Assembly: GCA_947481115.1 (NCBI GenBank)
Contig: CANKEI010000003.1
Location: forward strand, 1-37,167
Origin: a bacterium
GTDB taxonomy: Bacteria; Babelota; Babeliae; Babelales; JABDEC01
DNA: 37,167 nt
Direction of reading: 5' to 3'
Positions 9,400 through 36,806 of this stretch are shown in pieces. The notes under the pieces were generated by a model. That model was not told the origin of the DNA. It saw only the letters and a list, made by a program, of their open reading frames with translations, and ran no database searches. A program made the translations under genes and the position numbers. Each line of letters opens with the position of its first letter. Within the stretch, counting starts at the first letter, position 1.

Positions 9400-12063
9400 T
9401 TAGTGCTGCGATTGATGCACAAATTGATTGATTACTTTTAAGTTTTCATGACCAATCTTAGGGAAAAAGAAACGGGTAATTGGGTCACGCACATTGTCGA
9501 AAACCTGGCCATTTTCGATGGTCTCTTTGGCGGCTTGTCCTAATCTATTGCCAGTAAAGTCACCAATGCTGTTTTTGCGTGGATAAATTAATTTCGGTGC
9601 GATAAATACTACTAATGTGCGCTTAATATTGTCTTGGCTGCGATTTTTGAAAAAATTACCGATGATCGGGATTTTGGATAAAATTGGCGTTTCGGTTTGT
9701 GAATCAGTATCATCACGCCTGGTCAAACCACCTAGTACCAAAACATCATTATTCTTAATATTGGTATTAGTTGTGATTTCGCGATTATTAATTACGTTTC
9801 CAAGTGAACCTAATTCAGGATTAAAGTCTTGTACTTCTACTTTAATGCCAAGGTTAATATTAGAACCATCGGCACTTATATTAGGAAAAATGGTTGCTCT
9901 TAAACGTGCCCGATATTTTATATTTTTACGCACAAAAGTACCATTTTCTGGTACCACATCGCCCGCTCTTAATTTATTATCTTCCACAGATACCATGGCT
10001 TGTTTGTGATTCTGGGTGACTATGAACGGCTGTGATAAAATTTTATATGATTTCATTTTATTTAATAAGTCAAGCACATAGGCAATTCCATTGCCATCAT
10101 TAAAAGACATTACCGCAGCGCCATTTTGAATATAGTTAACTAACGAGTCTCCAAAGGGGTCAACACCAGTTAATAAATCAGCATCTAGGGCGCGACCCAT
10201 ATCAATTTTGCTGGTGGGAGGGATGGGAGTTGAAGGAGTAACTGGCGGGATATAATTTAAAATTGGCGCGCCGAGTTGTGCTGATTGCCAAGACAATTTT
10301 GGTGACATATTGTTTTGGTGTAGTCCCCGGGCTTGTGCAGCTAGGGATTGTAATTCATCTAGTTGTAGATCTGCAATAATTATCTCAAGAGCTACTTGTA
10401 ATTGCGGTTGGTCCATTTCCTCGATAATTTTTTCTAGGACTTTCCAATCATCGTGATAAGCCGAAACAATTAAATTGTTGCTATAACTATATGATTCTTG
10501 AAATTCAGCCCCAGGTTTTTCGTCTTTAAAAGTGTCGTTTTTTTTGCCACCACTTTCTTTTTTAACTTGTGGGGCACTAACAGACTCTTCAGATAGCACA
10601 ATCACATCTTTAAAACTATCTGTAGGATTATTAGTACCGGCGGTAGGACTACTAGTTTGTTGGTTGCGTTTACCACGGACTAAATTTTGTAAGACTGGGG
10701 CGAAGTTTTTGGCATCTAAGTATTGCAGTGGCTTGATATGAATAATTGAGCGACCGGAGTCTACAGATTGATCTAAATTTTCGACAATTAAATCTTTTAG
10801 TTTTCGGACAGAAGCGGCGTCGCCCATTAAAACCAGCGAGTTAGTGCGACCAACTGAGATAGCTCGCACGTTTTGTAAATACTTAGTACCAGATTTTTTA
10901 TTGCCAGCTGGCTTATAACCATAACCCAGGTTATCGTCAGATTGCTCTTTAAGTAATTCTTCGATCATCTTTTCGATCCGATAAGCATCGGTGTGATTTA
11001 AAGCTAGGATCGCGACCGTTTCTTTAAAGCCAGAGTTATCTAGCCATTGTACAATTTCCAGGGCTTGGCGTAAACAGTTTGCCCGGTTAGCTAAAATTAA
11101 ACTATTAGTTGGTGGATCAAATTGGATGGTAATTTCTTGGCCACTAGTGCTAGCACTAGGTGCTGCTGGGGCATAGGGATTAGCACCATAATTATCGCTA
11201 GTGCTGGCGCCAGCACTGACACCGCCAGGTAAGATCGAACTTAAGATCCCGCCGAGTTCTTTTTGTGCTTCTTGATCGTTAGTTAAATTAATATTCTTAA
11301 AATAATAAATATATCTAATGGGTTCGTCGTTATTGGGTAATTTATCAAAATCAGTATCGATGTATAATTTTAAATTTTTACCAACAAATTTGCGATTACG
11401 TACTACTTCATAAAAATGTTCATTCGGAACTAAGCTATAACCGGCAATTTCTAAGAAATTTAGCGCTAAGTTCCAGGCACTGTGAATGCTTAATTTTTTA
11501 TTATGCGTATAAGTAATCTTAGTTTTAATAGTATCTGGTGCTTGCGGAAATAAAATATTAGTCTTTTTGCCAGTAGCACTAGTTTTAAGTTCAGCTAACT
11601 TATTAATAATATCGACTAGATCTTCGTTTTCGTAATCAAAAAGTACGAGATCTTTAGCTTTAATTTTTTTGCTGGTAATAGTAGCTGGAGCAGTATAGAG
11701 ATTAGTGTTAGTTGTAACTAGTATCATTAGACATAATTTTGAAATTATGGTTCGATACGTCCCGATGGGGCATCCACCACGAACGGGCCAAAAAGTATTC
11801 TTTTTAGCTAGGTTCAGTAACCAATCTTCCACCACATTCCTCGACTGCGCTACGCTTCGCTCGGGACGAGCGGGATAAAACTTTTGTGATAATTTTATTC
11901 GAGAAAAATTTATTAATTCTAAAATATTTATTGTTAGACTTTTTCCGTAATTCACAGTCTGATCTCGCAACATCCCCCCCTCGACTGACGCTCGGGGTGA
12001 GCGGGGTTCGGGACGAGCGTGATAAAGTCTTTTTGATAAAGAGTCCAACTCGAGTTTTACCAT
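9400..12063 (-). CDS. gspD: Second T2SS secretin (GspD paralogue) with repeat-interrupted N-terminus
   Basis: An outer-membrane channel protein of the secretin family, 887 codons from ATG 12063 or 775 from ATG 11727. N0/N1-type modules are followed by KNINLTNDQEAQ... and repeated N-domains (VVRNRKF, IHIKPLQYLDAKNFAPVLQN), then the secretin core. The signature VLVLGGLTRRDDTDSQTETP and ILSKIPIIGNFFKNRS is unmistakable. A C-terminal motif (DPITRFFF) is shared with the other secretin in the operon. Residues ~14-107 come from three repeat fragments (family 1 half, a TCCCGAGCG-type piece, family 2). Beyond them lies a hydrophobic stretch (IISKLCLMILVTT) that looks like the interrupted signal peptide. 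The frame is open throughout, so either a long N-extension is made or translation starts at 11727. It begins 22 bp after gspM. Confidence 0.9.
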   Translation of the reverse strand: MVKLELDSLSKRLYHARPEPRSPRASVEGGMLRDQTVNYGKSLTINILELINFSRIKLSQKFYPARPERSVAQSRNVVEDWLLNLAKKNTFWPVRGGCPIGTYRTIISKLCLMILVTTNTNLYTAPATITSKKIKAKDLVLFDYENEDLVDIINKLAELKTSATGKKTNILFPQAPDTIKTKITYTHNKKLSIHSAWNLALNFLEIAGYSLVPNEHFYEVVRNRKFVGKNLKLYIDTDFDKLPNNDEPIRYIYYFKNINLTNDQEAQKELGGILSSILPGGVSAGASTSDNYGANPYAPAAPSASTSGQEITIQFDPPTNSLILANRANCLRQALEIVQWLDNSGFKETVAILALNHTDAYRIEKMIEELLKEQSDDNLGYGYKPAGNKKSGTKYLQNVRAISVGRTNSLVLMGDAASVRKLKDLIVENLDQSVDSGRSIIHIKPLQYLDAKNFAPVLQNLVRGKRNQQTSSPTAGTNNPTDSFKDVIVLSEESVSAPQVKKESGGKKNDTFKDEKPGAEFQESYSYSNNLIVSAYHDDWKVLEKIIEEMDQPQLQVALEIIIADLQLDELQSLAAQARGLHQNNMSPKLSWQSAQLGAPILNYIPPVTPSTPIPPTSKIDMGRALDADLLTGVDPFGDSLVNYIQNGAAVMSFNDGNGIAYVLDLLNKMKSYKILSQPFIVTQNHKQAMVSVEDNKLRAGDVVPENGTFVRKNIKYRARLRATIFPNISADGSNINLGIKVEVQDFNPELGSLGNVINNREITTNTNIKNNDVLVLGGLTRRDDTDSQTETPILSKIPIIGNFFKNRSQDNIKRTLVVFIAPKLIYPRKNSIGDFTGNRLGQAAKETIENGQVFDNVRDPITRFFFPKIGHENLKVINQFVHQSQH
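11747..11797 (-). repeat. Family 2 repeat fragment in the second gspD 5' region
   Basis: On the + strand ATGGTTCGATACG followed by CATCCACCACGAACGGGCC. It matches the left arm of the palindromic element at 31729 and the piece in atpD. In the ORF frame it encodes WPVRGGCPIGTYRT. Confidence 0.75.
11830..11880. repeat. GC-rich repeat fragment (CTCGACTGCGCTACGC type)
   Basis: TCCTCGACTGCGCTACGC joined to CTCGGGACGAGCGGG, a relative of the fragments at 4740-4905. It lies between the family 1 and family 2 pieces in the 5' part of the second gspD ORF and is in frame (YPARPERSVAQSRNVVED). Confidence 0.65.
11929..12031 (+). repeat. Family 1 repeat element, left-half copy D
   Basis: Starts with the terminal repeat (TTAGACTTTTTCCGTAATTC) and runs through CCCTCGACTGACGCTCGG to GGGACGAGCG, where similarity to the full element ends. 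It is in frame with the second gspD ORF, encoding ARPEPRSPRASVEGG on the minus strand. Confidence 0.8.
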
Positions 12064-12084
12064 TTCAGTTCTCTATTTTTAATT

Positions 12085-12672
12085 TTAACCAGCCTGGTTA
12101 ATTTCAGTATGATTCTTAAGCGTCGCAATTGTTAATAACAAACTAACAGTTGGTGGAGTGTCTGGGTTAGATTCTAACTCTAAATTCTTAATATACACGC
12201 GTTTATTTTTTTCTAGCTCTTCTAGTAATTGTGTGACTTGCCACATATTTAGATCATCTAGTTTAATTTCTAAGATTAACTCTGAATAGCCCTTACTTTT
12301 TAACATGGCGGGCTCATTAGTAGTTAAGCGCGGCTTTTCTTGTAGTTTATTAGTTAAATTTAACTGCTCTGCAATGGTTTCAAAATAGTGCATAATTAAA
12401 AAGTTTTTGTCTTGCTGAATTAATTCATCGACCAAATTTTGTTGTTCACGAATAGTAAGCTCTTTACTGAGTAATTCTTGTACTTGAACACGCTTAGTAT
12501 TTAAAGTTCTAATATTTTTAATCATAGCTGCGGTGCGATAATTATAATAAAAAATTAAGCCACCGCAGAGTACCGAAAACGTACCTATGTAAACTAAAAT
12601 ATAGTTTCTAAACATGCTGCTATTTTGAGTAGCTAAAAAACTTTCAATGCGGGCGAGTAAGCGGTTAATCAT
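12085..12672 (-). CDS. gspM: T2SS inner-membrane protein, GspM/PilO-like
   Basis: 195 aa with one N-terminal transmembrane helix (YILVYIGTFSVLCGGLIFYY, about residues 24-45), then a coiled-coil-like segment (IRTLNTKRVQVQELLSKEL). A small alpha/beta domain at the C-terminus has the ferredoxin-like pattern of GspM/PilO (SELILEIKLDDLNMWQVTQL, RVYIKNLELE). It would pair with GspL to couple the cytoplasmic ATPase to the pseudopilus. Sequence similarity in this family is always weak, so the call rests on topology, size and position. Its start overlaps the gspL stop by 4 bp (ATGA). Confidence 0.75.
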   Translation of the reverse strand: MINRLLARIESFLATQNSSMFRNYILVYIGTFSVLCGGLIFYYNYRTAAMIKNIRTLNTKRVQVQELLSKELTIREQQNLVDELIQQDKNFLIMHYFETIAEQLNLTNKLQEKPRLTTNEPAMLKSKGYSELILEIKLDDLNMWQVTQLLEELEKNKRVYIKNLELESNPDTPPTVSLLLTIATLKNHTEINQAG

Positions 12673-14450: not shown

Positions 14451-17350
14451 GTGTTAAGCTCCTGGTCTAACTCCTGAGCTGTTTTTTTAGAATTTTGCTT
14501 GCCACTACTATTACTATTATTATCTTCTTGTTCACTATAATGGCTAGGAACACTTGCGAGTAGGGCTGATTTGCGACGTGGTAATACGGTTGTAGATGTA
14601 TCGGCTAGTTGTGCGGTTGATGTACCAACTGGTGCTAAACACATAGCGCCTGGTGTACCTTGGCGGCGATCGACAAACTTTTGTACTTCATCAGTTTCTT
14701 CGTGGCGATAATCTTTAAAGAACCATTTTACAATTGGATCACGACTCTTTGTTTTAGAATTTATTTCACCGAGTGCTTGTTGTAAATCTTCAGATTTGCT
14801 TAGTGTATAACTGCATGTTTGATCTTGGTCATTAGTGATAATTCTGGGCGTAATAAAGATTAATAGCGTGTCTTTAATATTTTCAGAAGTGCGATTTCTA
14901 AATAAGTTACCGATAATGGGAATTTTACTTAAAATTGGTACATTAGTTTCAGTGTTAGTAGTTGTGCGTTTAATTAAACCGCCCAATGCTAATACTTCAC
15001 CGTTGGCTACATTAGTACAAGTTTGCACCTCTTTAATTGATGTATTACCAGAATCTATATTGTCTGGATCATCACCTTTAACTGAGAAATTTTCAATTTT
15101 TATAGCTACTTCTAAATTGATTAAACCATCACTATTAATTTGAGGAATAATATTTAGCTCTAAGTTGGCCGACATTTCTTGAATGGCATTTAAGGTATTT
15201 CCAGTTGCTACTACAGTACCAGATGAAACGCGTCGAGTTTGTCCAACTACCACGCGGGCGGGATATTTATTAGTAGTGATCACAAATGGTGAAGCAATTA
15301 CATTGGTACGCGTATATCTATTTAAAACCCCAATCATAGCCCAGGCGCTATTTTTACCTAGTGAAATCAAGGTGGAGCCGGCCGTACTAGTTTGCGCCAA
15401 GGTTAATAAATTACCAATTAAGCTGCCAGTGGTCGGATCAGTGACTACTGCGCCGCCGTTAGTGGGATTGTTAAACCAACCACTTGTAGCAGCGTTCACA
15501 TTGCGATTTTGAGCACTGTTGATTTGAGAGTACAAACCTTTGAGGTCATCAGTTTGCAATGTCACAATAATTGCTTCGATAGCTACCTGGGGTTGTTTTT
15601 TATCCAGCTGTTTAATCACATCTAGGACTAATTTATAATCTTCTGGTTCGCCGCGAATGACTAAATTATTACCTTGAACTTCGGGTTCAAAATGTAAATT
15701 ACCAAATAAGCGATCTTGGCCATGCAACCGCGCTTGACCGGCACCTAAGTTAGCACCAGCTACGCCTGGTGTGGCGTTAGCACCAAATTGGGTCACTTGA
15801 TTTAATAGTTCCGCCATCTGTTTAGCTGGGGTATGATTTAGTGGCACCACCCAAAAATTGGTGCGTCGTCTTTGCAGATCAGTGTCAAACTCCTGCACAA
15901 TTTGTTCAACTGTAGCAATTGCTGTGCGAGAACCTAAAATCAAAAGTGTATTAGAGCGTGATTCTACGATTACGCGTGCTTCTTTGAGTGACGAACTGAG
16001 CTTATTACTTTTAGCAAATGGACTTTGATAACCATATTTATCAGCGCTAGTATCTTTGCCGCCTGCTAGTTTTTTAATTAAATCAGCAATTTCAGCTGCA
16101 TCGGCTTGCTTAAGTTTAATAATCGAGAGCATCTCGGGGGTATTAGCGCCGTCGAGTTCACGCACAATCTCCATCAGTGACTTAATATTATAAGCCGTGT
16201 CAGTGAAAATTAGCGCGCGTAGATTTGCGAAGCTGCTAATTTTAGCGTTCTTACTTTTGATTTTATCCAGCACTTCGAGCATTTGCGCGGGCGTGCTATT
16301 TTTTAAGAAATAAATATATCTAATTACACCACTCTCAGTGATTTTATTCGCATCGACATTAATAAATACGGGTACTACTTCTTGCATAGCTGTACCCAAT
16401 GCTGTAATACGGTAAATTGGTTCACTGACACCAGTGACACGCACGCGGGCATACCCAGCTACTTTTAAGAACTGGTCAGTTAGGTGCCATAATTCACTTT
16501 TAGTTAATGGTTGATTAGTTGCAAATGAGATCTTGCTATTTTCTAGGCCAGTTTTACTAGTAGAATTACTATTGCCTGCGCCAGTACTAGCACCATCTTC
16601 TTTGGGGCTATTGCTATAAGCATCTGGTTCTTTAGTGTCTTTAGATTTAGGTTCTTTAGTTGGCTTAATATCTTCATCGAAAACAAAACTGATTTTAAAG
16701 ATTAGTTCTACTTTTTTGAGAAAATTTAACAAACTAGCGTTCTCAAAATTTAATGAGATGTCAGCGCTAAATGGGGTATCTTGATTTAGATCTAAGTCTG
16801 AACTTAATTCCGGTCCGGTATTATTTGGGTTAATAGAATTATTATTAATAGCCAGACTATTTTTGGTGTCAAGTGTCTTAGTATCATGCGAATCTAGTAG
16901 TTTTGGTTTAGTTTTAGCGCGCGAGTTACTATTATTATTATCAACTAAGTTTTTACGAGCATGATTGTAGGGATTATTTTTAGCAGCCTGTGCGTCTAGT
17001 CCCACTAATTCTTCGGGCGTAGCTGGAAAATTAAACTCTTGAAAATCTGGTGTATTTTTAGTTGGTTTTAAAATCGGTGCTAAATCTAAATCTATATTGC
17101 GAGTGTTAGTTGCAAACTTTGTTCCAGAGACTATTGCTGAGTTAGTTTTATTTATCTCACCAGGGTTATTATTTGCACCAGCTTGTTCAGACACATTAGT
17201 ATCAGCAGTCTGGGCAACTGGCCTAGTTTTTTTAATACGCGCTGTAAGTGTATTGGTACTAATTAAAGTTAATAGTAGTAATAATACCAATAATACGTTC
17301 GTGGTGAGTTTTTTCGACTTCAGAAGAAAGAGTATCGAACCATTATGCAT
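14447..17350 (-). CDS. gspD: T2SS outer-membrane secretin GspD
   Basis: 967 aa from ATG 17350, chosen because GGGAGG sits 5 bp upstream; the track's GTG at 17356 has no room for a ribosome site. A signal peptide (VLLVLLLLLTLISTNTLTA) is followed by a long N/S/K-rich linker to about residue 190. Then come the N0 domain (DISLNFENASLLNFLKKVEL), N1-N3 repeats (IRYIYFLKNSTPAQMLEVLDKI, FWVVPLNHTPAKQMAELLNQ, EDYKLVLDVIKQLDKKQPQV) and the secretin core ending VPILSKIPIIGNLFRNRTSE. It forms the multimeric exit gate. A charged, Ser/Thr-rich C-terminal tail follows a DPIVKWFF motif shared with the second secretin. It overlaps gspC by 8 bp and gspL by 4 bp. Confidence 0.95.
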   Translation of the reverse strand: MHNGSILFLLKSKKLTTNVLLVLLLLLTLISTNTLTARIKKTRPVAQTADTNVSEQAGANNNPGEINKTNSAIVSGTKFATNTRNIDLDLAPILKPTKNTPDFQEFNFPATPEELVGLDAQAAKNNPYNHARKNLVDNNNSNSRAKTKPKLLDSHDTKTLDTKNSLAINNNSINPNNTGPELSSDLDLNQDTPFSADISLNFENASLLNFLKKVELIFKISFVFDEDIKPTKEPKSKDTKEPDAYSNSPKEDGASTGAGNSNSTSKTGLENSKISFATNQPLTKSELWHLTDQFLKVAGYARVRVTGVSEPIYRITALGTAMQEVVPVFINVDANKITESGVIRYIYFLKNSTPAQMLEVLDKIKSKNAKISSFANLRALIFTDTAYNIKSLMEIVRELDGANTPEMLSIIKLKQADAAEIADLIKKLAGGKDTSADKYGYQSPFAKSNKLSSSLKEARVIVESRSNTLLILGSRTAIATVEQIVQEFDTDLQRRRTNFWVVPLNHTPAKQMAELLNQVTQFGANATPGVAGANLGAGQARLHGQDRLFGNLHFEPEVQGNNLVIRGEPEDYKLVLDVIKQLDKKQPQVAIEAIIVTLQTDDLKGLYSQINSAQNRNVNAATSGWFNNPTNGGAVVTDPTTGSLIGNLLTLAQTSTAGSTLISLGKNSAWAMIGVLNRYTRTNVIASPFVITTNKYPARVVVGQTRRVSSGTVVATGNTLNAIQEMSANLELNIIPQINSDGLINLEVAIKIENFSVKGDDPDNIDSGNTSIKEVQTCTNVANGEVLALGGLIKRTTTNTETNVPILSKIPIIGNLFRNRTSENIKDTLLIFITPRIITNDQDQTCSYTLSKSEDLQQALGEINSKTKSRDPIVKWFFKDYRHEETDEVQKFVDRRQGTPGAMCLAPVGTSTAQLADTSTTVLPRRKSALLASVPSHYSEQEDNNSNSSGKQNSKKTAQELDQELNT

Positions 17351-18611
17351 GTGCACCTCCCTGAGCCTTTAACATCCGCTGACGATCTTGTTGTTGTATT
17401 TTTTCGAGTGTGTTTGGTTTATTTTGTGAAACAACTGGCACTGGAACTTGGGCTTCGCGTTTAAGATCGTTAATCTTTAAATCTTTCGGATGATCAGGTA
17501 ATACAAATTCAGCTTCGGAAATTTCTTGCGCACTACGCGTGGTACTTGGCGCTGGAACTAAGCGATTACGTAAGCTAATTTCTGGCTCTTCGTCAGTGAT
17601 ATTATAAGTCAGCTTAATTGGTTGATTGTGTCGCAAAATCTCGATTGTAAAATTAGTTAAATTATTAGAGTTACTAGAATTATTAGTATCAGTTTTATCC
17701 CGTTTATTAGTATCAGTTTTATCCCTTTCGTCCCGAGTGTAATCGAGGGATGTGACGGGTACAGAATTATTGCTGTTAGTAGTTAGCTTTTGGTAAATTT
17801 CAAATCTGTCTTTAGTGCTCTTAGTCGGAATATCCGCAATTGCTAAAATTATATCACCAGTTTCAAAACCAAGCGTGTTGCCCAGTGTTTTATAGCCAGC
17901 TTGACCAATGCGACAGCCTAGATTTTCACCATCTTGGAAAGCGGTTGTCAGGTCTAATAATTCAATTAGATTACCCAAATTTCGCACATGCTCAGTAAAC
18001 TGGTCTAGATCGATGGCAATTTGATGATATCCAGTAGTCTGAATAAACTTGCTCCAGTTAATATCAGTTTTTTCCATGTCGCTTTTAGCTTCACGTTGAT
18101 ATAAATATAAAGTTTCTTGTTGGCCATTGTTGCGCAATAATTCGACTTTATGTTTAGTAATATTAATAATCTGGGCATCTTGGACACGATCGCCAATGCG
18201 ATAGTTGGTTTCTTCTTTAGTAGTTTGATCTACGATAATGGCAACATTTTCTTGATTATTACCAAAGGTCATGATGCCAGTTAAATTAATATTTAGCGGT
18301 TCTAAGAACGGCGCGGCAAATGGCGCTAGCCCTTCTGGTTGACTCAATTCTGGTGCCAAGGGAAAATTATCTGATTCAACTGAAAATTCTTCGGTTAGTT
18401 CAGCAGGTTGTGATTTGGTGCCAAAAAGATCGTTTAAGTAAATTAAACTGTAATCTTGGACGTCAGAATGGATCACCTGGGATTGCGGAAGTGCAACCAG
18501 CGTAATCGATTTTATATTAGGCATTTTGACTGGCATAAATAAAATGAAATATGTGGAAGCCAAAAGCTCTAACAGTAAGATACTGTTTACAATCCAAAAG
18601 GGCTGCCGCAT
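17343..18611 (-). CDS. gspC: T2SS inner-membrane protein GspC with PDZ domain
   Basis: 422 aa from ATG 18611, which has AAAGGA about 8 bp upstream; the track start is TTG 18647. A transmembrane helix (WIVNSILLLELLASTYFILF) is followed by the homology region (LNINLTGIMTFGNNQENVAI, YRIGDRVQDAQIINITKHKVELL) that contacts GspD N0, then a PDZ domain (GCRIGQAGYKTLGNTLGFETGD) that in other systems helps select substrates. Within the PDZ region a low-complexity insert (SLDYTRDERDKTDTNKRDKT) corresponds at DNA level to a GC-rich repeat fragment plus a duplicated 24-bp unit. The last ~60 residues are Pro/Gln-rich. First T2SS gene of the run; its stop overlaps gspD. Confidence 0.88.
   Translation of the reverse strand: MRQPFWIVNSILLLELLASTYFILFMPVKMPNIKSITLVALPQSQVIHSDVQDYSLIYLNDLFGTKSQPAELTEEFSVESDNFPLAPELSQPEGLAPFAAPFLEPLNINLTGIMTFGNNQENVAIIVDQTTKEETNYRIGDRVQDAQIINITKHKVELLRNNGQQETLYLYQREAKSDMEKTDINWSKFIQTTGYHQIAIDLDQFTEHVRNLGNLIELLDLTTAFQDGENLGCRIGQAGYKTLGNTLGFETGDIILAIADIPTKSTKDRFEIYQKLTTNSNNSVPVTSLDYTRDERDKTDTNKRDKTDTNNSSNSNNLTNFTIEILRHNQPIKLTYNITDEEPEISLRNRLVPAPSTTRSAQEISEAEFVLPDHPKDLKINDLKREAQVPVPVVSQNKPNTLEKIQQQDRQRMLKAQGGAHA
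17681..17757. repeat. 24-bp tandem duplication plus small palindromic repeat inside gspC
   Basis: TATTAGTATCAGTTTTATCCC begins at 17681 and again at 17705 (period 24, in frame). It is followed by TCCCGAGTGTAATCGAGGGA at 17731-17750, a variant of the dispersed TCCCGAGC-GTCGAGGGA motif. All of it is translated within GspC. Confidence 0.8.
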
Positions 18612-18677: not shown

Positions 18678-19727
18678 TTATGGCGTGACAATTTGTTCCA
18701 ATAGATCTGCAATAATATTATCAGTTGAAATTTGATTGGCTTGTGCTTCATAACTACGCGCAATTCTGTGGCGCAAGCAAGCCGGAGCGACTGCTTTAAT
18801 ATCATCAGGAATCACAAACTGGCGTTGGTGCATCAGTGCATAAGCTTTAGCGCTGTGATAAATTGCTAAACTGGCGCGTGGCGAAGCACCAAGTGCGATA
18901 TAGCCGGCGATAGTCAATTTAAATTTAGCGGGATTGCGCGTGGCTTGTACAATTTTTACAATATATTCGATAATTTTTTCATCGACATAAACTTGGTCGA
19001 CTAGCTCTTGAAGTAAAGTTAATTGGGGCTTAGAAATAATCGCATGGGTCTGAATCACTTGCTGTGACCTAGTAATAATCTGTTTTTCAACTTCACTATT
19101 GGGATATGGGACCAATAATTTAAACATAAAGCGATCTAGTTGTGCTTCTGGTAATAAATAAGTTCCCGATTGTTCAATTGGATTTTGGGTAGCAAAAACT
19201 AAAAACGGTAAATCTAATTTAAAACTCTCATTTCCAATGGTCACCTGTTGTTCTTGCATACACTCTAGTAAAGCAGATTGTACTTTAGCGGGGGCGCGAT
19301 TAATTTCGTCTGCTAGCACAATATTAGTAAACACTGGACCAGGTTTAATCACAAATTCTAGAGTTTTGGGATTATAAATCGAAGTGCCAATTAAATCACT
19401 GGGTAATAAATCTGGGGTAAACTGAATGCGTTTAAAATTCAGGCCTAACGCTTGGGCAACAGTTTTAACTAAAGTAGTTTTGGCAACACCCGGCATGCCT
19501 TCTAGTAACACGTGTCCGCGGCAAGCGATCGCGATTAGCATTAAATCGATTAGTTCTTGATTGCCTGCGATTACTTGGGAAATTTCAGTGCGCAGTGTAG
19601 CTAAAATTTGGGCAGCTTGCACTAAATTTTGGTTGTTTTGCGAATTATGGGTTGGCGACTGATTTAGTAGGGGTTGTGTAGCTTGGTCTTGTTCTGGTTT
19701 TAAATTTGCTTCTGGGTTATGGTTCAT
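18678..19727 (-). CDS. MoxR-family AAA+ ATPase
   Basis: 349 aa from ATG 19727. Cytoplasmic chaperone-like ATPase. The Walker A is GMPGVAKTTLVK (the variant with A before K typical of MoxR), Walker B VLADEINRAP, sensor 1 FATQNPIEQSGTY, and the C-terminal lid SPRASLAIYHSAKAYAL. MoxR proteins usually sit with DUF58 and von Willebrand factor A genes and help mature metal- or membrane-associated complexes; here none of those partners is present and the gene leads into gspC with a 66-bp gap. The track extends the ORF to 19958, but the extra residues (SPARSSRTLLTLSVSRGGD) are translated family 1 repeat and are not conserved in the family, so I use the later ATG. Confidence 0.93.
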   Translation of the reverse strand: MNHNPEANLKPEQDQATQPLLNQSPTHNSQNNQNLVQAAQILATLRTEISQVIAGNQELIDLMLIAIACRGHVLLEGMPGVAKTTLVKTVAQALGLNFKRIQFTPDLLPSDLIGTSIYNPKTLEFVIKPGPVFTNIVLADEINRAPAKVQSALLECMQEQQVTIGNESFKLDLPFLVFATQNPIEQSGTYLLPEAQLDRFMFKLLVPYPNSEVEKQIITRSQQVIQTHAIISKPQLTLLQELVDQVYVDEKIIEYIVKIVQATRNPAKFKLTIAGYIALGASPRASLAIYHSAKAYALMHQRQFVIPDDIKAVAPACLRHRIARSYEAQANQISTDNIIADLLEQIVTP

Positions 19728-19821
19728 AAAATTATTACTCGTAATTTTTGGGTTTACAAATTTAACTGTTTTTAAATTTAACCAAATTAATAGTTTTGTG
19801 CTAGAATGTCGCATGATGATT

Positions 19822-19944
19822 TTTAGGAGTCTTTTTCTCGCAACATCCCCCCCTCGACTGACGCTCAGGGTGAGCAGGGTTCGGGACGAGCGGGCGGGAC
19901 TATATGGATTTATGCGCCTGGTGAAGCAGTGTGTGTTTAGGAGT
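19822..19944. repeat. Family 1 left-half fragment flanked by a 9-bp direct repeat
   Basis: CTCGCAACATCCCCCCCTCG and onward to GGGACGAGCGGG (about 19837-19893) is family 1 sequence without its terminal repeat. TTTAGGAGT occurs at 19822-19830 and again at 19936-19944, bracketing it. The right copy is the ribosome-binding site of the barrel gene. It lies in the divergent moxR/barrel upstream region. Confidence 0.65.
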
Positions 19945-19947
19945 GGT

Positions 19948-21528
19948 ATGCAGCGCAACGGTTATATGAAAAATAATATTTTAAGCATTAAGTTTTTTAG
20001 AAATTTTTTTTGCTTTTTAAATCTAATTTTGGTTTCTAATTTAATTTTAGCCGACGATAATACTAATCAAGTTAAAATTTCTAGTCGGGCTTGTCTCTGG
20101 CCGCGGATGCCATTTTATCCAACTACACCAGAAACTTTACCGCTCAATCGGACATTATTAGAGCCATATCAACAGGATCAGTTTTACCAAGTTTATTTTA
20201 CGCCCTACTTCTCTCAAACGGGTCATCATGATGATCTGGGTAGCTACTTTTTGCCTAACGGTAAATCATCTATGATTTGTGGCGAATTTGGTTGTACGGC
20301 CGCTTATAATGGCACTTTAGATGTGTTAGCAAATTACTTTAATGTATTTACTAATGCTATTCCTATTACTGGTGATCCAATTAGTTTACAAGATTATAGG
20401 TTTGAAAGTTTGGTTAAATTTAAACCAAAGCAAACTATGGTCGGGACAGCATTAACTTATCATCAGCATTTATCGGAATATTTAGACGAAGGTTTTTGGT
20501 GGGAATTTATTATTCCCTTATTAAATGTCACGAATGATTTACAAGTCTCAGAAGATTTTATTAACACCGGCACTGGGCCAACACCCGATGGTTATTACAA
20601 CAATATGATCGAAGCATTTCAGCAGCCAGGTTGGTACTATGGTAAAATCGATGACTCTGCTCGTTCAGCTTTTGGAATTGCCGATATTCAAGTTAAACTG
20701 GGTTACACATATAACAAAACTGAAACACATGCGTTTTCAACTTATTGGGGCATAATTTTACCAACTGGTAATACACCAGATGCCGAGTGGATGTTTGAAC
20801 CAGTGGTTGGTAATAACGGTCATATGGGTTTATATTCGGCTGCTTCACTTTTTTTTAGAGTCTGGCATTCCGAAGAGATGGGTTTATATTGGACGCTCGA
20901 TACGGCCGGAATTTTCTTTGGGGAAAATAAACAAATGCGGTCCTTTGATCTTAAGGGCAAACCATGGTCACGTTACATGTCAGTTTATGCTGATTATGGT
21001 GCAACTAGTGTGACGCCTGGTATTAATATTTTTACGCAATCGATGAATGTCACACCTGGGGCACAGCGCGATCTTAATCTGGGTTTCTTATTTAAGAATG
21101 GCGGCTTTAGAGGTGAATTTGGTTATCACGTATTTTGCCGCGCACAAGAAATAGTTAAGCTTGCTGGCCGTTGGGATAGTAATGCTGGTATCGCGGCGAT
21201 CTACGATAGCAATATCGGCAATATGATCGCTGGCGGGGCTACTCGTGATCAAGCGACAATTAATACTTATGGCAATATTACTAATGATCAAATTAACGCT
21301 AGTAGTACTACCGCGAAATTTTTAGCAATCTCCGAAGATCAAATTGATTTAAACTCTGCGGCGATGGCGGGCACTTTTTTAAATACTTTTTATGTGACAC
21401 TAAATTATTATTGGGCTGATCGACCACATCCAGTTTATTTAGCTGGTGGTGGTTCGTTTGACATGAAGACTGATAATACGGCGCCAGCAAAATGGGCAGC
21501 TTGGTTTAATTTAGGCTTAGAATTTTAA
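19948..21528 (+). CDS. Outer-membrane beta-barrel protein
   Basis: 526 aa from ATG 19948, chosen because TTTAGGAGTGGT gives a perfect AGGAG 5 bp upstream; the track's 19798 start runs through a repeat. A signal peptide (FFRNFFCFLNLILVSNLILA) precedes a mature protein with long runs of alternating residues: IADIQVKLGYTYNKTETHAF, MSVYADYG, FRGEFGYHVFCRAQ, FYVTLNYYWAD. It ends NLGLEF with the terminal Phe expected for BamA-dependent insertion. No specific porin family is recognised. A strong hairpin terminator follows at once, so it is probably monocistronic with a promoter in the moxR-divergent region; TAGAAT at about 19803 is a possible -10. Confidence 0.8.
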   Translation: MQRNGYMKNNILSIKFFRNFFCFLNLILVSNLILADDNTNQVKISSRACLWPRMPFYPTTPETLPLNRTLLEPYQQDQFYQVYFTPYFSQTGHHDDLGSYFLPNGKSSMICGEFGCTAAYNGTLDVLANYFNVFTNAIPITGDPISLQDYRFESLVKFKPKQTMVGTALTYHQHLSEYLDEGFWWEFIIPLLNVTNDLQVSEDFINTGTGPTPDGYYNNMIEAFQQPGWYYGKIDDSARSAFGIADIQVKLGYTYNKTETHAFSTYWGIILPTGNTPDAEWMFEPVVGNNGHMGLYSAASLFFRVWHSEEMGLYWTLDTAGIFFGENKQMRSFDLKGKPWSRYMSVYADYGATSVTPGINIFTQSMNVTPGAQRDLNLGFLFKNGGFRGEFGYHVFCRAQEIVKLAGRWDSNAGIAAIYDSNIGNMIAGGATRDQATINTYGNITNDQINASSTTAKFLAISEDQIDLNSAAMAGTFLNTFYVTLNYYWADRPHPVYLAGGGSFDMKTDNTAPAKWAAWFNLGLEF

Positions 21529-22694: not shown

Positions 22695-22713
22695 AATTGC
22701 ATTAAGTGTCAAA

Positions 22714-22877
22714 ATTAGAGCTCTTCCGTAACTATCTTGAAATAAAATTTTTTCCCGCTCCAGGCGTCGCCAGAGGCTATGCCGGACACGCTCGTCCCGA
22801 ACCCCACTCACCCCGAGCGTCAGTCGAGGGGGGGGATGTTGCGAGTAGAAACTGTGAATTACGGAAGAAGTCTATTA
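22714..22877 (-). repeat. Family 1 repeat element, full-length copy C
   Basis: An inverted full copy relative to 342-503: it starts ATTAGAGCTCTTCCGTAAC and ends ACGGAAGAAGTCTATTA. The right end overlaps the stop codon of the giant minus-strand gene (TAA at 22877-22875). The element fills almost the whole gap between galE and that gene, which are convergent. The ORF called at 22706-22909 is translation of this repeat. Confidence 0.85.
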
Positions 22878-25800
22878 AAATTTTATGTCTCTTAAAATGT
22901 CTTCGATAGCGGAGTCTACTTTTCCTTCGAAGGCTTTTGCAATTTGCGCCATTGCCTCTTCCGCAGTCACTTCTCTGCCAGAAGCTTCGACCATGGCACT
23001 ACTGAGCTTTGTTTTTAATTCATCCGTCATTTCATTAACCTTCTGACCATACGTTATACCTTTTATTCTACCAAGTCTAATTTCATCAACAAGGTTTTCT
23101 ACTGCGTTAGCTTTGGATCCAGCAGCGCGATCTGTTGCTGTAGGCCCACCTTCTACTTCTTTTGCACGTGTACCGGCCTCAACTTTTTGACCCGCTCTCG
23201 TTCCTTTATCTGTAGAAATAGCTTCTGCTGTTCCGCTTCTATTAGCAGACTCATTCCCTTCAGCCTTTTCCTTAGCCTCAGCAACTTTCTTTTTATCCGC
23301 CGCCTTCTCTTTAAAGTATTTATATGTTGCAAAGCCCGCTCCTAAGAGGATTTGTAGTATGAACAAGCCCATCGCATACTCCGTAATATCCTGTGACCAG
23401 CTGCCGGTTCCTGGAGGAGGTTGCGGGGGAGTGGCTGTTTGGAAGTAACCTTGAACAGTGGAGTAGATTTGATAATCAGCCAATAACGCGAAGTAAGCAT
23501 CCATTGCTGGGACACTATATGGCGTATCACATTGCCAGTTACTAGTTATGTTGCCTGCGGCGTCTTTGGTTTGTACAACGCTACCAGCACACCAATTACT
23601 GACTATCGGCGATGGTGTTGTTTGATTAATTGAACCACTGAGCACAGCTGTTTTGTATTCTGTATAGTCAATTGCAATTTGGGGAAAATGAATCCCGGAA
23701 TATTGTCCTGGTAAGTCTTTAAAAGTAGTTTGACTGGGGCTCTCTGTGTTAGCAAGTAATGTGTTATTAGCATAAGCAACAGATAACTCCTTAGCTAGGT
23801 CGACATCATACATTGACCATGGCCCTACGATTAGTGGTGAAGGCATAGGATTTGGGAAGTTGAAGCTGACTTGGGTACCTAAAATTGGTACGCCATTTCC
23901 GCCGGTTGCGCCACTTAAGTAAGATGCTGGTGATGCAGTCTCAGCTTTACCATTGATCATTTCAATCAAAATTAAGGGCAATTCGGTAATTGGGAAATTA
24001 TTTATTGCATATAGCAACAATGGCATACTGCTGTTTTGATTAGTCATAGCAGCACTAGAACTATCTTGAAGTGCTGTGATCATATTTTGGAAAGCTGAGA
24101 ATAGGGCGCCTTGAATAATGCCATTGTCATTAGTATTATACAGACTTGCTAAAAGTGTAGTTAGGTCTGTAGTAAGCGTAGCAGCCGCACTGGCACCAGT
24201 ATTAATATCGCTAACTACAGCATTATAAAATTTAGGCATGTCAGTAGGAGAAGGATTGCCATTTTGAACGGCCATTTCACTTAATAAAGCTAGCATGTCA
24301 GCATTTAAGGTAGTGGTACCGCTAGCGCCAAGATCTAAATTTATATCTGTAATTAACTGTAATAATTCTGTGTTAAGATCAGTCATAGTAGATGGGAAAG
24401 TAGCATCAAGCAAGGCTTTCGTATCATTAGTCAAAGTTGTGCCAATTGCCATATCTAAATCAGCTACAACCGCTAAGGCTTCAGTATTAATTGCAAGATG
24501 ATTAGTTACAGCAGTAGGTGTGAGTTGTTGTAAAAGTTTGCTTAAATCAGCAAAAAGTATGGCCGAAGTGGCACCACTAGCAATATCTTCAATAATAGTA
24601 TTATAGGCGGCGCTAAGTTCAGCAGATACTGTAGCGTTACCATAAATATCTGTTAATAGTTTAGTTAAAGCGGCTGCAGTGGTATTAGCGGGGTTAGCAG
24701 CAGCAGCTGCTACAGCAGTATAGGCAGTAGTAATATTTTGGATTGCTTGTGTGATATCAACACTTAAGAGAGCATTTAGGTCAGTATTTAATTGTGTGGA
24801 TGTTTGCTCACTTAAAACATCTAAGATTAATGTTTGTAGAGCTGTTGCCAGCTGCGCTGGTTGAGTAGCGCCAAAGATATCAGTCATCAATCTATTCATA
24901 TCACCAGTTTGTGCAGTTTGCCCTAAATCAGACACTAGCTGATTGAAATCTGTTTTAATCTGGTCCGCACTGGCTGCAAGCGCTAAATGCGCTAAATATG
25001 TAAATAGATTCAATAAGTCAGTATTTAAAGCTTTAGCAGTAGCTGTGTAAGCATTGATATCGGTCACCATTTTATTATAAGGGGTAGCGATGTCTTCAGA
25101 TGGATTAAAGTTTGTAAATAGATTTAACAGATCAGCATATAATGCTGCTGAACCTGGATTAGCACTTTGTGCATCAGTGATTAATTGTTGGATGGCCGAA
25201 ATCATAGTGCCAGTTTGGGTAACTGTAGTTAGTTTGTTGATGAAGGTGGTTGTAGCGGGGATAGTGATACCAGTTATTAGGGTAGTATAAGCCAGCTCAA
25301 TGTTGTCTAAGGCGCTATTATTTGGGATTGGATTAAATAAGTAAGTCAACATGACCGGTAAGTATTTGTTTAAATTAATCAGGTTGTTAGTTTGGACGGC
25401 ATAAATTACATTTTCGATTTTATTTTCTACCATAGCTAATTGTCTGTCCGAAGGTGTGCCTGGAATTTTATTATTAGCGGCATTAGGATTATTATAATAT
25501 AGCGCTAAGTTGGCAGTGGCGATTGCAGCACTTTCCAATGTTTGTTGATAAATAGTTGCAATTTTGATCTGATTAGTTGGATTAAAATTATTTAGAATAT
25601 TAACTAAATCAGTATTTAAAGTTGCGCTTACGGGCTTTGTTGCCAGAGCATCTTTAGCCAGCTGTATAATAGCATTGGTTAAATCTAGGGTTAACTGATG
25701 ATTAGTGGTTAATGATCCCATTAATGTGGCGGCTAAGGCTGCTATTTCGGTGGGAGTTTCTCCAGATGTATTAATGCCAGCGACAAGTTTTCCGTAAGCA

Positions 25801-28800
25801 GTACTTACAGTAGTAAGTTCAGCAAGAGTGGCTAACGGATTAAATAAATAGGCCAGCATCTTCGGCAGGTATGGATAATTTAAGCTACCATAATTTTGAC
25901 CATTAATGTCATTAATTACTTGCGCTAAGTTGGTTTGAAGATTGATTAATTGTGCTGCTGTGAGGCCGGCATAAGGAGCCAAATTTTGCGTGGCGATTGC
26001 AGCGCCATTAACTAATTGAGCGTAGGTATTTTCGATAGCGACCTGGTTGGTAGGATTAAAATTAGCCAATAAATTTGCTAAGTCGGTATTTAAAGTTGCG
26101 CTTACGGGCTTTGTTGCCAGAGCATCAGTAGCGAGCTGTTGGATTGCTGTCATTAATGTAACTGGCTCTGTAGCGGTTGTAAGCGTGAGCATTAAACTAG
26201 CTAAGTCAGTTTGAATTTGTGCCGGAATATTATTTTTAATACTAGCAGTTAAGTTAGTATAAGCTGTTTGTGTCGCAGTTATATTAGCAGTAGTTGCTAA
26301 AGGATTAAACAAATAGCTCAAGCATGTTGGTATATCTGTATTTAAACCGGCAAAGCTTGGTGGTAAGTTAATACTATTAATTAACGCATCTAAGTTTGTT
26401 TCCATATTAGTTAATTGTGCGGCTGTAAGATTTTTATATGGAACTAGATTAGTGCTAGCAACAGCTGCGCTGTCAGCTAAAGATTGATAGGCGCTAGTAA
26501 TAGCATTTTGGTTAGTTGAATTAAAACTAGTCAGTATATTGTTTAAATCAGTATTTAAAGTTGCTGCGATTGGAGTAACTTGAGTGGTATCGATGATTAA
26601 TTGTTTAAGCGCTGAACTTAAAATATTTAATTCGGTGTTAGCGGTTAATTTTGCTAACAAGCTAACCATTAAGCTAGCAGCACTTGATCCATTAATACCG
26701 GCAACTAAACTAGTATAAGCTGTTTGTACGTTAGTGATTTCAGCGGCAGTTGCTAATGGATTAAATAAATAAGTTAAGAAATTTGGAATATCAGTGCTTA
26801 ATTGTGTAAAGCCATTAGTGTTAATATGGTTAATCAGATTACTTAAACTAGTTTCTAAATTAGTTAATTGTATTGGCGTGATTAAGGCTTTGGTGGCTAC
26901 ATTAGTATATGGGGCAATATTAGCAGTAGTTGTAGCAACACTGCTAGTTAAAAGCTGATAATAGTTAGCAATTACGCTAGCATTGGTAGGATTAAAGTTA
27001 ACTAAAAGATTATCAAGATCGGTGTTTAATGTAGTGGCTACCAAAGTAGTTCCTACAGCATCAGTAATTAATTGTTGTATAGCGGTTACTAACGCAGCTG
27101 GTATTTCAGCGCTAGTAACATTTGTGGTCGCAAGTAATGCTGCGATTAGTGCTGTAGTTAAGGTTGGAATGCTAGAATTGTTAGCTTTAATAGCATTTGC
27201 TAGATTGCTATATGCTGTTTCAACTATGGCTAAATTAGCTGGTGTAACTTGGGGGTTAAATAAGTAGGCTAATAAGGTGGGCAGAGTTGTATTTAGATTT
27301 GTAATCGGACTACTATTAATACTGCTAATTAAAGCTGCTAAGCTAGTAGTTAGAGAATTTAATTGCGCGGTTATATATGCCGTCATTTGTTCTGGCCATC
27401 TTTGTCCTTTAGGCACAGTGCTTAGAGCACTAAATAAGCTAATGAATAATTGCTGTTGGATTAACGGTACCGTGCTTTGTGGTACGATAGTTGTGAGCTC
27501 TGTAATAAAATCTGCTAATAATATTGGAGATAAGGCGCCTGTTTGCGGCAGAATAGTAGTCATAGCAGTAAATAGATTTTCCATGGTGGCTTGTTGACCA
27601 CTGGTTGGAATAGTAGTTAAGGCCGTGAACAAATCTCCTAAGGTAATGTTATCGCTGAGTGTGGTTATAGCTTTAAAGACAGCATCTAGGTCATCTTTTT
27701 GGCTAACATTAGGCACTGACTGAATGTCGGTAATTAATGCTTGATAAAGCGGCGCTACAGTATTATCAGCTTTAGTATCAGTTTCACCAAAAGCAAGATG
27801 AATCAAGTTGAGTGTGTCGGCTGCAAGATTGGCAGATTTACTGTTAACGTCAGTCAAGACAGTTTGGTATTGTGCATTAAGATCAACTTTAGCCTGTTGA
27901 AAAGGAATATTCAGAATAGCCGCAATGTCAGTATTTAAAGTGGCGCTATTAGCGGGAGTCTGAATATCATTAATTAAGCTATAATAAGCTTGACAAGGTA
28001 GTGGTCCAGTAAATGTGGTAGCCGGTGCTACTGGTGCAACGCAGGCGGTCGTGGTTGTTTGATAAATATCATTTAATACTGCACTCAATTGCTTGGCAAT
28101 ATAAGAACTAGAATATTTATTCTGGATATCTCCAACCAGAGTATTATAATCGCTTGCAAGATTGCTTTGTTGAAAAGTCTGATTTCCTTGTGGAATATCA
28201 TTGATATATAATTGCATAGCTTGGATTAAAGTTAGCAGATCAACATTAAGCGTAGTAGTTTTAACGGTGATGCTTTGGGAATCAATAATAAGCTGTTGAT
28301 AAGCATTTTGTAGGTTAGTTAACTGTGGACTACTTGTATCGCCAGTGAAAACCATGGCCCATAATGTAGCAAAAGCGGCCGTAAGTTTAGTATTATTTCT
28401 TAGATTATTAATCAGTGCTTGATAATCAGCCATAACTGTAGCGATATTGGCCCCTGTATTGTTTTGAGTAGCAGTTTGTTGTAAAAACGTTCCAAAATCT
28501 GTTTCTGTTTTTGTTCCTTTTGCTGTTTGAATATCTGTATAAAACTGGTACAGTGCTGTGGCTGCATTAGGAGTGGCAGAAGGAAACGTAATGCAATTGA
28601 GAGTGGTTGGGCAATAAATGGAGTTTAATAAGGCTGGAAAATCTGTTTTTTGCAACTGAATACTATCTGCCAAATCAGTTGTTAATTTATTATAGGCTGT
28701 GGAAATAGCTTGATAAGCTGGCAGCGGGGTTGAAGAACAACTAGCGTCAGTAGTGTCAGTGCAAATCTCTGGTTCCTTAGTAGTTGGATTTATCTTCAGC

Positions 28801-36444: not shown

Positions 36445-36517
36445 TCCCGCTCCAGGCGTCGCCAGAGGCTATGCCGGACACGGTCGTCCCGAGCGAAGTC
36501 GAGGGATGCTGCGGGTA
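36445..36517 (-). repeat. Family 1 right-half copy E joined to a TCCCGAGCG fragment
   Basis: CGCTCCAGGCGTCGCCAGAG to CGGTCGTCCC is the family 1 right half without its terminal repeat. It then switches to CCCGAGCGAAGTCGAGGGA, the other repeat type. It lies between atpD and atpC. Confidence 0.8.
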
Positions 36518-36560
36518 TGATTTCGAGAACAAACTATATATTGTGAAAGAAATTATATCT

Positions 36561-36806
36561 ATGAAACTACAGTTAATTTCGCTGGATCAACCAGTGTATG
36601 AATATGAAATTAGTTGGCTAGAATTAGATACAACTACCGGTAATTATGTAATTCAGCCGGGTCATGCACCCATGATTTTAATTTTAACACCAGACTCTAA
36701 AGTAACTTGTTGTTTAGTTAGAAACGGCGAACAAAAATTGTTTATAATTCGAGATGGGATAGTGCATATTAAACGAGATGGTATAATCTTGAGTTACAAT
36801 AGTTAA
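36561..36806 (+). CDS. atpC: F1 ATP synthase epsilon subunit, short form
   Basis: 81 aa from ATG 36561; the track's 36471 start reads through the repeat. It matches the N-terminal beta-sandwich of epsilon: an opening LQLISLDQPVYEYEI and the PGHAPMI block. The C-terminal two-helix regulatory domain (normally another ~45-50 residues) is absent, as in some lineages, so inhibition of ATP hydrolysis by extended epsilon would not be expected. Its position after atpD supports the call despite weak sequence conservation. Confidence 0.85.
   Translation: MKLQLISLDQPVYEYEISWLELDTTTGNYVIQPGHAPMILILTPDSKVTCCLVRNGEQKLFIIRDGIVHIKRDGIILSYNS

Follow-up and report, generated by a model that had tools for sequence, protein, structure and literature searches.

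The second secretin gene and the repeats in its leader

The window, as we call the whole 37,167-nt stretch of DNA analysed here, is contig C3 of a metagenome-derived genome (882 kb, 70 contigs, 75% complete) whose relatives are Candidatus Dependentiae/Babeliales/TM6. It carries the gene order gspC - secretin 1 - gspL - gspM - secretin 2, and the features of this cluster described below lie on the minus strand. The second secretin gene (9400..12063) encodes 887 aa with a Secretin_N domain (PF03958, residues 351-432) and a Secretin domain (PF00263, residues 667-826), and by these domains together with its T2SS gene context the protein is of the T2SS/T4P type; in the comparison with PHROGs it matched the general secretin family alone (M13 protein IV). 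At least two secretin matches are present in most of the genomes of the order checked, several of the pairs lying close together on one contig (compare 9400-18647 in the window).

The gene is preceded by the gspM stop codon and a 21-nt leader containing AGAGAAC (12064..12087), and the first base of ATG 12063 lies 22 bp past the gspM stop, as the preliminary description of this DNA had it. Translated from this ATG, the protein reads MVKLELDSLSKRLYHARPEPRSPRASVEGG...RPERSVAQSRNVVEDW...WPVRGGCPIGTYRTIISKLCLMILVTTNTNLYTAPA, and between the ATG and the hydrophobic core the frame passes stop-free through a stack of three repeat elements spanning about 300 nt. Element 1 (11932..12045, end points set by eye) is a family-1 REP with its core at 11979-12013 and imperfect inverted ends, GTTGGACTCTTT and AAAAAGTCTAAC. 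An AT-rich spacer (11884..11931) separates it from a short-type REP (11828..11883, core 11839-11866) of the TCCCGAGCG...TCGAGG type, which contains TCCCGAGCGAAGCGTAGCGCAGTCGAGG and whose tail has diverged to GAATGTGGTGG; a second spacer (11790..11827) leads to a family-2 palindrome (11745..11789, core 11748-11784) reading GTTCGTGG...TCGAACCA. Neither spacer has another copy in the genome at E<=0.001. The passage of the frame through three repeat pieces before a hydrophobic stretch, noticed earlier from the letters of the sequence, was borne out: the three cores could be mapped, all are dispersed repeats, and the reversed control patterns gave 0 matches in the same genome.

Dinucleotide shuffling of the whole insert left the frame open 0.4% of the time, and 1.1% of the time when the spacers alone were shuffled; because the ORF had been chosen as open before these probabilities were calculated, we read them as supportive and not as a clean test. 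A structured RNA leader was considered and set aside, the folding z-score being just -1.2 and no Rfam family matching.

The h-region, IISKLCLMILV, was located by hydropathy at residues 106-116 (11716..11748), and residues 125-127 (11683..11691) form a candidate signal peptidase motif, A-P-A, picked out by eye from the sequence. With a predicted n-region of 105 residues and net charge +9, an h-region of hydropathy 2.34 (orthologue range 1.5-2.8) and this A-x-A site, the features of a Sec signal peptide are present by sequence. Of 28 orthologues from the same order, 27 have only 0-11 residues ahead of this region, and the single exception, whose first-listed start is uncertain, has 46; an n-region of 105 residues is extreme.

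The start codon of the second secretin

Within the genus, the gspC-secretin1-gspL-gspM-secretin2 order recurs in genome G001 (contig CANKVQ010000001.1), whose secretin 2 is 72% identical to that of the window, is free of the repeats and is 98 residues shorter (789 vs 887 aa). The preliminary description had proposed that removal of ~94 residues would restore a normal signal peptide; the size was close, the measured excess over G001 being those 98 residues. The G001 gene starts with MLSRKIINIFVIIISCTLTINAAHTP, 20 nt after gspM, and when the gspM ends and leaders of the two genomes are aligned, the AGAGAAC is identical and both ATGs fall in one column. Judged from this alignment, which is a same-genus comparison with one close relative, ATG 12063 is the ancestral start, since it is homologous to the G001 start within a conserved leader, and this places the repeat elements behind the start, inside the signal peptide.

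An alternative put forward earlier, that translation restarts at ATG 11727 (11725..11727, residue 113) with a shortened signal, has in its favour that no other ATG lies behind the insert. It is nevertheless a poor candidate: Shine-Dalgarno complementarity is absent (+1.6), the start would fall in the middle of the h-region with no positive n-region ahead of it, the maximal 12-residue hydropathy would drop from 2.34 to 0.59, and the G001 orthologue starts upstream. As the ancestral start this ATG is ruled out by the orthologue alignment and by hydropathy, and as a start in use we find it scarcely credible. The outcome that the preliminary description had named as refuting its reading, orthologues with ATG 11727 for their ancestral start, did not appear in G001.

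A better internal start than ATG 11727, absent from the preliminary description, is the in-frame GTG GTG at residues 77-78 (11830..11835), with GAGG 3 or 6 nt upstream. If translation began at GTG 11835 or 11832, inside the stack, the mutated REP would supply the GAGG, everything upstream would be untranslated leader, and the n-region would be ~28 residues long with charge +2 in front of the same h-region. The Shine-Dalgarno duplex energies are -5.3/-5.9 at these codons vs -2.9 at ATG 12063, a weak value equal to that of the G001 start, and many REPs at ORF 5' ends in other species have been judged untranslated (PMC3733652). Such a start, however, would not account for the uninterrupted frame between the conserved ATG 12063 and the GTGs, and the retention of the ancestral leader at ATG 12063 also speaks against it.

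Secretin 1, in the same operon, bears on this choice as well. There a family-2 palindrome (17297..17342) stands directly behind ATG 17350, which has a good site (AGGGAGG) upstream, and in front of the h-region VLLVLLLLLTLIS; at the position of the palindrome G001 reads MFKNSLKFLLLL. We found no plausible start downstream of this palindrome, so that, as far as the sequence tells, it must be translated and act as the n-region, which it supplies as MHNGSILFLLKSKKLTTN. This counts against a GTG start in the second secretin, and we consider the latter unlikely; the kept frame and the first-secretin case together lead us to favour ATG 12063 as the start in use. In gspC, an in-frame REP (core 17731-17748) and a 24-nt tandem repeat (17683..17764) make up an insert of 31 residues which is absent from the G001 gspC, a protein otherwise 71% identical.

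The insertion might also have knocked out the secretin or its export, leaving a young pseudogene, as the extreme leader and the decay expected in a small host-dependent genome could suggest. Yet the frame is intact over 887 codons, and dN/dS outside the insert is ~0.12 vs G001 (dS 1.6, near saturation), similar to the 0.09-0.11 obtained for gspC, gspM and enolase; moreover, sufC, mutM, ftsI and DNA ligase also contain in-frame REPs, and these genes cannot all have been inactivated. We therefore hold a pseudogene to be very improbable, while noting that the insertion may be too young for selection elsewhere in the gene to reveal whether it still works.

Dispersed palindromes in the genome and its relatives

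Two gapped patterns retrieved 69 copies of REP-like palindromes from the genome, 57 distinct copies (58 raw matches) with the first and 12 with the second. Pattern-1 copies are few in most of 48 relatives, G045 alone reaching a comparable number (46). Full-length family-1 copies are composites of ~165 bp in which imperfect inverted ends, carrying CTTCCGTAA, enclose the REP; an intergenic one lies in the window on the plus strand (22712..22877), and it is full-length copies of this family alone that have the terminal inverted repeats, though imperfect, and the small size of a MITE. Short REP copies come near the 8-9 bp stem and 4-5 nt loop of the CGTC-tagged superfamily discussed below (TCCCGA..TCGAGGGA), but longer inner loops are common. 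Conserved pairing of the outer stem across copies was rejected, its value (236) being no better than with shuffled partners (229 +/- 4.5). A RAYT-type Y1 transposase (PF01797) had no match in the 75% complete genome, control genomes being positive, and was accordingly dropped as the mover of the repeats. Each copy has on average 4.7 of its 6 frames open, vs 2.6 of 6 in random sequence of the same composition, and the persistence of the elements is probably due to this near-absence of stops in most frames and to insertion at sites that can accommodate additional residues.

The preliminary description had not noticed that many further genes, gspC and secretin 1 among them, also carry these repeats in frame. 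From reading the genomic stretches around the copies, with ORFs and domain or structure comparisons as the basis for the intragenic counts, we find REPs in frame in the conserved genes gspC, sufC, mutM, DNA ligase, ftsI, transketolase, murG, a potD-like gene and others. Compared with solved structures, SufC has ~78 extra residues at the REP, MutM ~55 and DNA ligase ~57 (two REPs), and the residues around the REP that extend beyond the aligned solved chain number roughly 35 in FtsI and ~30 in transketolase. Pfam domains span the REP or flank it on both sides in the PotD-like protein, MurG, a glycosyltransferase and MetG; a comparison of MurG with solved structures gave no match under the strict threshold applied. 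Across the different genes, the palindrome occurs in each of its six reading frames.

In G001, three of six REP copies lie within ORFs, DNA ligase included. The REP in the G001 DNA ligase (L229, G001 C13) occupies a site differing from those of both REPs in its counterpart here, which argues for independent and continuing REP insertion within the genus. Among the copies sampled in G045, none was clearly located within a conserved gene, and a few lie in putative ORFs.

Further REPs, which may be translated, lie in frame immediately ahead of the hydrophobic stretch at the N-terminus of proteins that are exported or in the membrane, namely a DUF192 protein, LspA and one other protein (L099, G000 C6:2728; L098, C4:16512; L083, C2:2664). 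Mechanical ORF calls for ATP synthase epsilon (36471-36806) and MoxR (18678-19958) run upstream through REPs, and the real starts of both are probably downstream of the called ones. Short in-frame tandem arrays (period 9-30 nt) are commoner near REPs, 14 of 69 copies having one within 120 nt vs 6.5% of control positions (binomial P ~1e-4); examples are gspC, mutM, mutS and DNA ligase, and the sites include 17683-17748 in the window and G000 contigs C6, C11, C19, C21 and C43. Elsewhere in the window the 3' ends of the enolase and DUF1016 nuclease genes are partly duplicated downstream (6215-6262/7160-7207 and 7118-7154/8901-8937), in a stretch absent from G001, and an ORF of 2874 aa (22875-31499) has internal repeats of ~465-477 nt.

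Since repeats of the same family stand at the ends of several contigs, a misjoin of the repeat stack in the metagenome assembly has to be considered. But the flanking genes keep the same order in an independent genome, in-frame REPs are found on many contigs and also in G001, and pieces joined wrongly at random would seldom preserve the frame; an assembly artefact thus seems to us a very remote prospect.

Palindromes in probable n-regions of signal peptides

With a repeat-free orthologue, an ancestral start at 12063, an open frame and a retained h-region, the tolerance of repeats in a very long n-region, one of the two options in the preliminary description, has become the best-supported reading. 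We consider it likely that the three REP-like elements behind ATG 12063 are translated as a ~105-residue n-region of a signal peptide that is then removed. In this scenario three REP-like palindromes would have been inserted successively, a few codons behind the ancestral ATG. Beginning at 12063, ribosomes would read through the insert, the extended basic n-region (+9) would remain cytosolic while the original h-region drives Sec export, and signal peptidase would cut near the A-P-A at residues 125-127, taking off the entire repeat-encoded stretch and leaving the mature secretin unchanged. Removal of the signal peptide would be what makes this accretion of REPs tolerable. We infer translation from 12063, export, cleavage and the mode of element movement from sequence.

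The best-known palindromic elements read in frame within proteins are those of Rickettsia. The Rickettsia palindromic elements (RPE) of R. conorii are small palindromic repeats found in intergenic positions and in frame in conserved genes, some of them N-terminal, with larger repeat-encoded regions of 43-82 residues (PMC3733652). The palindromes described here likewise interrupt protein-coding genes in frame, again in a small genome of a host-dependent bacterium, but they belong to the phylum Dependentiae and to what appears to be a different sequence family, and three of them form one insert of roughly 100 codons in a signal peptide. Although they work like the RPE, we do not class them with the families RPE-1 to RPE-8. 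They also resemble the CGTC-tagged REP superfamily (PMC3733652) in a core of the xTCCCGAGCG..TCGAGGGAx type, in being dispersed and partly intragenic, and in that no dedicated transposase was found. The tag position ahead of the stem, however, reads GCTC or GTTC here, not CGTC/TGTC/CCTC, and inner loops reach ~23 nt; because of the tag we do not class them as CGTC REPs, which have been reported from five phyla, Dependentiae not among them (PMC3733652).

Other parallels concern the signal peptide itself. A small mobile repeat of enterobacteria forms part of the signal in a putative exported protein (PMC2759123), so that there too some residues of a signal peptide derive from a mobile element; in the present case, by contrast, the original h-region stays and the repeats lengthen the n-region of a conserved operon gene. 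The long signal sequences of autotransporters (PMC2805444) are likewise exceptionally long Sec signals of Gram-negative bacteria, but they are characteristic of a protein family, whereas we describe an insertion of dispersed repeats in a single genome. The QMITE elements of Coxiella burnetii (PMC5896051) are small inverted-repeat elements that overlap genes in a host-dependent bacterium; they do so at the 3' ends of annotated functional genes, unlike the internal and N-terminal repeats seen here. Among open-licence papers we found no prior description of such elements in Dependentiae as a phylum, of a ~100-codon stack in one signal peptide, or of a parallel case in the same operon.

It is possible, though we offer this quite tentatively, that signal-peptide n-regions are a safe harbour for mobile palindromes, REPs serving as working n-regions of both secretins and as tolerated loops elsewhere, in several frames. 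If the n-region is cut off, one REP after another could be accommodated in essential exported proteins. Because a single operon offers two such cases, the idea can be tested directly for signal peptides. Start codons will be misplaced by gene callers where such repeats sit near 5' ends. A second host-dependent lineage with in-frame palindromes, resolved by two genomes and with insert-free orthologues at hand, may help to tell which protein sites tolerate selfish DNA.
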